Source: Clostridiaceae bacterium
GTDB taxonomy: Bacteria > Bacillota > Clostridia > Saccharofermentanales > DTU023
Reading direction: 5' to 3'
NCBI GenBank assembly: GCA_012841015.1
Contig: DUVN01000005.1
Coordinates: forward strand, 62,001-126,000
Length of the DNA: 64,000 bases
Position 1 is the first letter of the stretch, and each line of letters opens with the position of its first letter. The notes under the pieces are model-generated. The model was not told the DNA's origin. It saw only the letters and a list, made by a program, of their open reading frames with translations, and did no database searches. Made by a program: the position numbers and the translations under genes. This document shows, in pieces, positions 27,227 through 53,438 of the stretch.

Positions 27227-28066
27227 TTATACATATTCCAGTCTGCGCTCGCCGCGAACAATCTCCCACATGAGTATCGCACCTGCGGAAGCGACGTTAA
27301 GTGATTCAGCTTTCCCGCTCATGGGGATCATAACCGAAAGATCAGCCAACTGAAGCGCTTCTTTTGATAACCCCTTTCCCTCATTTCCCATCATGAGGAT
27401 CAGCTTAGGAGCCTGAGGGCGCCCCGATGCGAGGTTATCGCCTGTGATATTAGATGCCACGAGTATGAATTCCTGTCGCTTCATGTCACATGCAAACTGA
27501 CCGATATCGCACTGTAATTCGACAATCGGAAGATGAAAAATCGATCCCATTGAGGCTGCGACTGTCTTAGGATTGTAGATCGTCGCCGAAGAGTCAGTCA
27601 ATAATACACCGTGGAATCCGAGTGCATCTGCTGACCTAATCAGCGTCCCGACATTTCCAGGGTCCTGTACATCTTCTAACAGGAGAAATCGTACCGTCGA
27701 ATAATCGAACGATTCGAGCAACTCTTCAAGTGTGACGGACGGTGGTCTGACGATTGCGAAGACGCCTTGGTGCGTCTTCATGTCTGAGATACGCTCAAAG
27801 AGGTGTGGTGCTAATCGACATACCTTGTCCTGCAAGACACTTGAGAGATCGACCTCTAACTTCTCATCGAGCCGTTGCATCGCAAGCTCGCCACGCGCGT
27901 CGTTTGAGAAGACAAGGTAGTCCGGCTCAATGTCATTGGCAATAAGATCGGCAACATGGCGCAGCCCCTCAACAATGACGAGTTTCTCTTTTTTTGCTTG
28001 ATGTGGCGATTTTAAACGCTGAAACATTTTGAATAAAGAATTGTCAGCAGATTCAATGACTCTCAT
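27227..28066 (-). CDS. TrmH/SpoU-family RNA methyltransferase
   Basis: LLLEDVQDPGNVGTLIRSADALGFHGVLLT, LMMGNEGKGLSKEALQLADLSVMIPMSGKAESLNVASAGAILMWE. Confidence 0.93.
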   Translation of the reverse strand: MRVIESADNSLFKMFQRLKSPHQAKKEKLVIVEGLRHVADLIANDIEPDYLVFSNDARGELAMQRLDEKLEVDLSSVLQDKVCRLAPHLFERISDMKTHQGVFAIVRPPSVTLEELLESFDYSTVRFLLLEDVQDPGNVGTLIRSADALGFHGVLLTDSSATIYNPKTVAASMGSIFHLPIVELQCDIGQFACDMKRQEFILVASNITGDNLASGRPQAPKLILMMGNEGKGLSKEALQLADLSVMIPMSGKAESLNVASAGAILMWEIVRGERRLEYV

Positions 28067-28116: not shown

Positions 28117-28135
28117 ATCACGCAAAGTTGTGCAA
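28117..28135. repeat. Left copy of 19-bp direct repeat bracketing the hairpin array
   Basis: ATCACGCAAAGTTGTGCAA; right copy ATCACGCAAAGTTGAGCAA at 28561-28579 (18/19). Confidence 0.85.
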
Positions 28136-28158
28136 AGTAACATACATAGGCTACTAAG

Positions 28159-28544
28159 TTGGTCAAAAATGACGGCTTCGGCAAGAGCTCAGTGCTCAAA
28201 GCGGAAAAATTGACCACTGCCGTCCCGAAATCGCTCGAAAATGGTCAAAAATGACGCTTTAGGTAAGAACCCCCTACCCAAGGTGTAAATTTTGTCCACA
28301 TTCCGCTGCAAAACACTCGATCGTGGTCAAAAATGACGTTTTGGGCAAGAACCTCCTACTCAAGGTGTAAATTTTGTCCACACACCGCCGTTTATCACTC
28401 GAATCTGGTCAATAATGACACTTTAGGTAGGAAACAGCTACTCAAGGTGTAAAATTTGTCCACAATCGGAGTCAAACACTGGGATCTGACCAAAAATGAC
28501 ACTTTAGGTAGGAATCCGTTACTCATAACGTAAATTTTGACCGC
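28159..28544. repeat. Tandem array of five ~82-bp units, each an imperfect inverted repeat
   Basis: Unit starts (GGTCAAAAATGAC-like) at 28161, 28243, 28325, 28407, 28488 (period 82/82/82/81). Each unit pairs GGTCAAAAATGAC..TTTAGGTA with TACTCAAGGTGTAAATTTTGTCC. Confidence 0.93.
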
Positions 28545-28560
28545 GAGCTATTCGAGAAAG

Positions 28561-28579
28561 ATCACGCAAAGTTGAGCAA
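28561..28579. repeat. Right copy of 19-bp direct repeat bracketing the hairpin array
   Basis: ATCACGCAAAGTTGAGCAA. Confidence 0.85.
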
Positions 28580-28615
28580 CATCCGAACCGTCAGGAGGAA
28601 CAACGAGATTCTTAT

Positions 28616-28672
28616 TAAAAATAAGGGGACTGTCTTATTCTCACCGCTATCAAGCAGTTTTCAGACAGTCCC
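28616..28672 (-). terminator. Intrinsic terminator of infC-rpmI-rplT operon
   Basis: Minus strand GGGACTGTCT-N27-AGACAGTCCC followed by CTTATTTTT. Confidence 0.8.
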
Positions 28673-28698
28673 ACATCATGACACTTGGGTTTAGATTG

Positions 28699-29058
28699 TT
28701 ACGCACTGAGCGCTTTTTTTGAGACCTCAACGAGTTCGGCAAACCCTTCTTTATCATTGACAGCTAGATCGGCAAGAACCTTGCGATCGAGACCGACGCC
28801 GGCCACATTCAATCCGTGCATGAAACGGCTATAACTCATGCCGTTCAGTCGAGCTGCTGCGTTGATGCGCGAAATCCACAGACGGCGAAAATCGCGTTTC
28901 TTAAGGCGGCGATGTTCGTAGGCATATTGACCCGATTTCATAACGGCTTGCTTCGCAATACGGAAATTCTTGCTTTTGCGCCCGAAATAACCCTTAGCCT
29001 GCTTTAAAACTCTTTTATGGCGACGGCGTAATACCGTACCTCTCTTAACTCTTGACAT
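28699..29058 (-). CDS. rplT: 50S ribosomal protein L20
   Basis: [68 protein letters not shown]. Confidence 0.98.
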
Positions 29059-52343: not shown

Positions 52344-53438
52344 TTACTCGAGATATTCAGGCATCGCTTCAATATAGTTTTCGGGAGTAACCATTATACA
52401 ACTAACTGCATACTCGTCAGGAACTTCCTCACCCTTAATCATTTTCATTATATGCGTAGCGCTTGCTTCACCTACTTCAAATGCTGAGAAATAAGCGGCC
52501 GCCTTAAAGCATGAGTTCTTTTCAAATTCACCAGGTGCAAGGTAGCCACCCAGTCCAATTGTACATGATTCTTTGTCTAATCCTGCCTGCTCAAGAGCCC
52601 GTGTAGCGCCTACGGTGCCTTCATCAGCTGTTGAAACAACAATCCATTTTTTTATTTGCGGGTTAGCGACAATGACACCATTTGCAGCATCATACGCCTT
52701 CCCTAAATCCATCACATAATCTGTCTGAAAAATTCGCTCATTCGGAAACTCCGGCAAAACCTCTTTAAACGCGTCTAATTGACCTTCAGTGCGCGGTATA
52801 CAGCTCGTGACAGTGTTAGTCGTCATGATCATCACGCCGCACTCTTCGTCCTTATCTAGACCGTGCTCTTTCATATAATCAATCGCCCAAAGAGCACTTT
52901 CCTTACCAATCGCATAAGCATCAATACCTACCCATTTAGTAAGTTTGTCCCCGTTATCGTCTATCAAAGCATCGTCAGCAGCAATCACAGGAATTCCCGC
53001 CTCATTAAACTTATCGACGGCTGCCTGTGAAAGCGTTTGATCTGGTGGACAGCAGATAACACCAGATACTTTTCTTGCTATTACGGTATCGATCATTTCT
53101 AAAAATTGACTACCGTCTGTTCCAGCGTCAACATAAAGCCACTCATCAGCACCAAGTTCTTTCACCTTATCACCGGCAGCTTTTCCCTCATTGATAAACC
53201 AAGTAGCAGTACCGAATTTGTAAACACCTGCGATGACGATTTTTTCGTCACCATCCTTTGTTTCCGATGGTTTCACAACCTCAGAATCTTTCGCCTCCTC
53301 TGGTGTTGAAGCATCGGAATCTGTTGTCTCCTCTGGTATTGAAGCATCGGAATCTTTTGTTTCCTTTTTAGCACAGCTTACCAACACGAGTGAGCACATT
53401 AACAATACAACCCCTAGCAATGCAAATAAGCGTTTCAT
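52344..53438 (-). CDS. Sugar ABC transporter substrate-binding lipoprotein (periplasmic-binding type I)
   Basis: Lipobox LVLVSCAKKE, acidic repeat linker, VSGVICCPPDQTLSQAAVDKFNEAGIPVIAADDALI. Confidence 0.88.
   Translation of the reverse strand: MKRLFALLGVVLLMCSLVLVSCAKKETKDSDASIPEETTDSDASTPEEAKDSEVVKPSETKDGDEKIVIAGVYKFGTATWFINEGKAAGDKVKELGADEWLYVDAGTDGSQFLEMIDTVIARKVSGVICCPPDQTLSQAAVDKFNEAGIPVIAADDALIDDNGDKLTKWVGIDAYAIGKESALWAIDYMKEHGLDKDEECGVMIMTTNTVTSCIPRTEGQLDAFKEVLPEFPNERIFQTDYVMDLGKAYDAANGVIVANPQIKKWIVVSTADEGTVGATRALEQAGLDKESCTIGLGGYLAPGEFEKNSCFKAAAYFSAFEVGEASATHIMKMIKGEEVPDEYAVSCIMVTPENYIEAMPEYLE

Follow-up and report, generated by a model that had tools for sequence, protein, structure and literature searches.

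A dispersed, lineage-specific family of tandem 82-bp dyad arrays between the genes of a clostridial genome

An intergenic tandem array in the 64,000-nucleotide stretch of DNA analysed here (the window) is one member of a dispersed family of about 36 arrays and about 143 units, which makes up about 0.65% of the source genome; arrays cut at contig ends affect this count, as some may be two halves of one array. The source genome measures 1.79 Mb in 30 contigs and is about 90% complete, and the window lies on its contig C4. The family is real and lineage-specific, and it is probably mobile. The best reading is that the arrays belong to a non-autonomous composite repeat, REPIN/MITE-like in kind, whose units are putative dyad protein-binding sites. 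I consider it fairly probable that this lineage-specific, non-coding repeat spread as a unit, with its dyads read by a protein, and that it survives mainly at gene ends.

The array in the window and its family

In the window, five units start at 28160, 28242, 28324, 28406 and 28487, giving a period of 82, 82, 82 and 81 bp. TRF called the array at 28242–28514 (period 82, 3.3 copies, 80% match, score 316), and a direct-repeat search recovered a 66-nt core five times, at spacings of 82, 82, 82 and 81. Both support the five units of ~82 bp described in a first-pass annotation, with starts one base earlier than it had claimed. The sequence TGGTCAANAATGAC, with up to two mismatches, occurs six times in the window, five of them inside the array, against 1.76 expected. 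All parts of the element are given here on the + strand. Unit 1 (28160–28241) is a diverged edge unit, with a 57-bp palindromic core (28160–28216) and a 25-bp spacer; units 2 (28242–28323, core 28242–28298) and 3 (28324–28405, core 28324–28380) likewise consist of core and spacer, and unit 4 (28406–28486, core 28406–28462) has a spacer of 24 bp. Unit 5, the last (28487–28542), starts with TGACCA and has a degenerate core without a stable fold.

The genes on either side, both on the - strand and outside the element, encode a TrmH/SpoU-family methyltransferase (27227–28066; PF00588, E 6e-35) and ribosomal protein L20 (rplT, 28699–29058; PF00453, E 6e-47). At the array edge, TTGACC with TATGTT 16 bp on (28166–28139, - strand) is promoter-like toward trmH, at 9/12 positions and as a consensus match only. 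The window (1–64000) shows a strong strand bias, both ORFs being on the - strand in 47 of 51 neighbouring pairs. Further along it, a 33-bp tandem repeat (53284–53365, 2.5 copies, 87% match) lies inside the - strand ORF 52344–53438 and is probably an 11-residue coding repeat.

A search of the source genome with the array by blastn gave 44 matches. Fetching the matched places and building a profile yielded 35 array loci with 140 units, and a further diverged array of three units was found at C8:11636–11869. Each array has two to six units, 86 of 95 steps between units measure 82 bp, and all arrays are intergenic. The period had been held to speak against coding, and a coding origin was rejected in view of the period of 82 and of open frames of at most 106 aa within the arrays. 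At one locus (L038:2610–3020), the array abuts the start of a 136-aa open frame with no Pfam match, which resembles a gene truncated at the array. A second repeat, GTCAAGTCCTAAAGGTGGTGTAAT..., with the terminal perfect palindrome GTTTTTAGAAGAAGGCTAGCCTTCTTCTAAAAAC, occurs near several arrays (the 3′ flanks of L012 and L035, the 5′ flanks of L017 and L029); contigs C7 and C14 begin with an identical stretch of it, 127 bp long, which may have arisen in assembly.

Across the family, the unit comprises an imperfect palindrome of 57 bp, in which the consensus arms TGGTCAAAAATGACGYTTTRGGYA and TRCYCAARGYGTAAATTTTGNCCA enclose a 9-nt loop, and then a 25-bp spacer; it contains two inverted 24-bp half-sites with the consensus TGGNCAAAAWTNAC-RYYTTNRGYA. 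Between arrays, identity is 0.79 in the core versus 0.58 in the spacer; core and spacer share one history, and the difference therefore suggests that the core is under constraint. Inner units are closest to the consensus, with 7.6 mismatches against 9.2 in last units and 10.8 in first units, as would be expected if recombination keeps inner units alike. Any mirror symmetry of the conservation profile (r 0.45, p 0.009) is weak, since a shift by 3 gives r 0.47. A few steps (71 versus 82) and cores (46 or 68 versus 57) hint at changes of 11 bp, but such cases are rare and 82 bp does not correspond to an integral number of 10.5-bp turns; I therefore make no claim of helical phasing.

The arrays lie beside housekeeping genes, among them rplT, rplQ and those for 6-phosphogluconate dehydrogenase, superoxide dismutase and iron hydrogenase. 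No transposase was found among the scanned flanking genes, and no cas gene among 20 scanned flanking proteins. Of the junctions that hold an array, 11 of 26 are convergent, as against 6 of 71 among the remaining junctions of these loci (p 3e-4); in the window the figure is 2 of 51. REP-BIME clusters also prefer gene ends.

Edge dyad, tail and hairpin, and the sites in relatives

The element extends beyond the tandem units, and the arrays are polar. On one side, a dyad with the consensus CTTAGCNNGCTAAG abuts the first unit, with at most three mismatches in 25 of 33 arrays versus 0.7% of random places, and the exact core dyad TTAGCNNGCTAAG occurs at eight places genome-wide, each at an array edge. 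In the window it is CATAGGCTACTAAG (28145–28158), with three mismatches to the consensus. On the other side comes a tail and then, in at least 10 of the arrays, a 45-bp terminator-like hairpin, GAGGCTGTCTC...GAGACAGCCTC or GAGGCTGTCTCGTTCTCGCT...GAGCGGTTTTGAGACAGCCTC, whose distance from the last unit is 57–118 bp and whose order and orientation are constant. The tail in the window (28543–28623) is 78% identical over 91 bp to that of the array in L025. The feature is larger than first described (28117–28579), as the edge dyad and the hairpin at 28624–28675 also belong to it.

The same annotation had described a 19-bp direct repeat bracketing the array, and this exists, at 28117–28135 (ATCACGCAAAGTTGTGCAA) and 28561–28579, with 18 of 19 positions identical in the direct-repeat search. 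Its interpretation as an insertion signature does not generalise: it is peculiar to the window locus, no other array has such a repeat beyond chance, and the right copy sits in the tail, which resembles the tails of two other arrays. More broadly, no target-site duplication beyond chance was detected at the array flanks, the window locus excepted; two further top flank-repeat scores are artefactual, their arrays beginning at the end of a contig. Nor are the ends of the element inverted repeats of each other, the left edge being the dyad and the right the tail with an unrelated hairpin.

The hairpin in the window, GGGGACTGTCTTATTCTCACC...GTTTTCAGACAGTCCC (28624–28675; nhmmer, 43.9 bits), had been taken for the rplT terminator. 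Its position is right for this on the - strand, but it belongs to a family common to the 3′ hairpins of at least nine other arrays, and an apparent rplT terminator can therefore be part of a spreading element. A hairpin profile made from ten array-associated copies gave 10 strong matches in 225 kb, all of them 57–118 bp 3′ of arrays and in one orientation, and two weaker partial matches likewise 3′ of arrays. As this 225-kb set comprises the array loci and the window, genome-wide exclusivity rests on a search for perfect copies, of which the whole genome has six, four at arrays and two without one. Given these two places, the hairpin may represent a repeat in its own right. Here it stands between rplT and the array, whereas from rplQ it is reached only after the array. 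It thus keeps a fixed order with respect to the array but not to the neighbouring genes, and belongs with the element, not with any one gene.

Empty sites were found in relatives at two loci. In the congeners G009, G001 and G006, rplT and trmH are separated by a short interval that has an ordinary terminator but no array. Between rplQ and ecfA, the source genome has four units, and G002, G009, G001, G006 and others have none. At both loci the terminator of the relatives is not recognisable in the source genome, where the hairpin of the element stands instead. The empty sites could in principle be losses rather than the state before insertion, though several sister species agree.

The annotation had proposed a search for further copies in the source genome and its relatives, and beside the family described above this revealed about five decayed copies in congener G002, with the same edge dyad and at other sites. 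One of these (L071) has the edge AGCATGCTAAGTTGGTCAAAAAT and the hairpin 3′ of the units, and in another (L075) the hairpin is on the opposite side. The proteins encoded beside the G002 copies had no match among those at array loci of the source genome. From most congeners the family is absent at the level of blastn and profile. The motif occurs 55 times in the source genome and in none of 391 other genomes of the class, and plasmids and phages gave no match to it; the 24-bp half-site pattern, sought across 85,462 species represented by a single genome each (source genome not included), gave two matches, in unrelated records. In G054, from another family of the order, unit-like TGGNCAAA-type palindromes, GTGGACAAATTTGACGTTTATCGG...CCAGATAAACGTCATTTTTGGCCAG, lie near contig ends (L076–L079); this genome also has a truncated IS21 istA/istB pair.

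Fold, half-sites and rival explanations

Each unit had been described as a hairpin-forming palindrome. For units 2, 3 and 4 this is borne out, as they fold better than shuffles on the + strand (z -3.8, -2.0 and -3.5); for units 1 and 5 it is not (z -0.7 and +0.3). Folded as single-stranded DNA, the entire region reaches z -3.1, and a terminator-like hairpin follows many arrays; the arrays might on these grounds be a structured RNA or 3′-UTR element, with transcribed tandem hairpins acting as stabilisers, processing sites or terminators. A fold kept by compensatory change is contradicted by the arms, which vary independently across 113 full-length cores. At pair 23–35, C-A mismatches number 37 versus 36.4 expected by chance, and at pair 4–54 the Watson-Crick cells hold 48 versus 45.3. 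Mutual information was not significant among the tested pairs (smallest p 0.097), and arms within a unit match each other no better (17.02/24) than arms taken from different arrays do (17.09/24). RNAalifold predicted 13 consensus pairs, to which covariation contributed just -0.81 kcal/mol. The check for covariation across copies therefore speaks against selection on the fold rather than on the sequence, as had been suggested. The TTGACC of unit 1, read at first as a compensatory change, is a one-arm change, since A and T are about equally frequent at position 54 over the 113 units, independently of position 4. No Rfam family scored above threshold for the array region, and the array lies beyond the hairpin as seen from rplT and before it at rplQ, which leaves no constant relation to transcription. 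That the array is a structured RNA is not supported on present evidence, and I regard it as improbable; as far as sequence can tell, a pair of half-sites recognised in double-stranded DNA accounts for the pattern better than a hairpin under selection does.

The arrays could also be resident chromosomal dyads for a nucleoid, topology or insulation protein, selected at convergent gene ends; BIMEs in enterobacteria bind gyrase and IHF. The conservation of core above spacer, the near-invariant 82-bp spacing of multiple sites per array and the enrichment at convergent junctions would suit such a role. Set against these, the absence from most congeners implies no conserved host role, and the constancy of edge dyad and hairpin suggests a moving unit. 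Gene-end placement, moreover, is expected equally if insertions in promoters and genes are purged, which alone would produce the enrichment, or if the sites function at convergent ends, and the data do not separate the two. I judge this account unlikely, if the least so of the rivals. The repeated TGGNCAAA half-sites offer a lead only to another origin, as I take the motif to resemble IS21 terminal repeats: the arrays might be remnants of IS21-type or other transposon ends, whose transposase sites multiplied. The palindromes of G054 are similar and accompany a real IstA/IstB pair, and IS21 ends likewise carry multiple repeated transposase-binding sites, 23 bp apart (PMC10122671). The arrays differ in being gene-free palindromic units in a genome without IstB, on which ground an IS21 origin was rejected; neither the source genome nor G002 yielded more than weak, partial IstB matches in DnaC/DnaA-length ORFs, and the G054 IS21 fragment, on a truncated contig, is without such a motif. 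Descent from IS21 ends is accordingly a long shot. Least credible by far, and virtually to be dismissed, is a CRISPR-like or leader-driven array. A regular period, a palindromic repeat and a polar edge are common to both, but here the repeats differ by about 20% between arrays, the spacers are related (58% identity) and there are about 36 loci; growth from a leader is ruled out by the edge unit being the most diverged (10.8 versus 7.6 mismatches).

Proposed element and comparison with known systems

I therefore return to the composite repeat. The element would run from the edge dyad through two to six tandem 82-bp units to the tail, and end in the terminator-like hairpin in many copies. Its half-sites may be read as double-stranded DNA by a putative dimeric or multimeric protein, possibly the recombinase or transposase that mobilised the element and that may since have been lost. 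Unit number would shift through unequal recombination or slippage, inner units staying alike and edge units decaying, and insertions would persist chiefly at gene ends, most of all between convergent genes. Dispersal, architecture, polarity, empty sites, the slower change of the core and the independence of the arms are observed, and mobility as a unit, recognition by protein and this turnover of units are what I infer.

Against this explanation stand the lack of a general target-site duplication, ends that are not inverted repeats, and the lack of a candidate enzyme, since searches of the source genome for IstB and Y1 transposases gave no candidate for a mobilising or binding protein. The sole Y1 match (PF01797) is an IS200-type TnpA of about 136 aa at the end of contig C19 (L103:1396–1875), with its own left-end hairpin CCACCCGC/GCGGGTGG upstream, unrelated to the arrays; it is absent from G006, G009 and also G002, which has array remnants. 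Mobilisation by a RAYT or Y1 enzyme was rejected on this basis. No RAYT was found in the source genome, which is 90% complete, so that one may have been missed. There is a smaller chance, slightly below that of resident sites, that the arrays represent an undescribed class of polar, array-based element, in which dyad edge, spaced dyads and terminator hairpin travel together and a dedicated protein both mobilises them and organises or insulates convergent gene ends.

No REP/RAYT machinery turned up in this small-genome lineage, whose intergenic repeats now include a dispersed array family of fixed and unusual architecture. Because its empty sites are clean and decayed relatives exist, genomes that have the family can be compared with those that lack it in the search for its mover. 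The dispersed intergenic copies, the empty sites and the higher conservation of the core agree with what was first proposed, an array of REP/BIME-like or MITE-derived type or a group of protein-binding sites.

Like MITEs, the arrays are short, non-coding, multi-copy and missing from the same sites in sister species; they differ in their internal tandem array, in ends that are not terminal inverted repeats and in the lack of a detected target-site duplication. The closest described kind is the REPIN of Pseudomonas. In REPINs, short conserved sequences are paired in inverted orientation, and the pairs may form ordered tandem clusters (PMC3116915); the arrays share with them and with the REP-BIMEs of enterobacteria a dispersed, high-copy, intergenic occurrence, an inverted pair in each unit and ordered tandem clustering. 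I describe the family as REPIN/MITE-like and do not file it as a member, because a RAYT and the GTAG foot are missing and other features are extra: the half-site is 24 bp, the unit consensus is without a GTAG/GGAG tetranucleotide foot, the units lie nearly always in arrays at a constant 82-bp period, and a fixed edge dyad and 3′ hairpin frame them.
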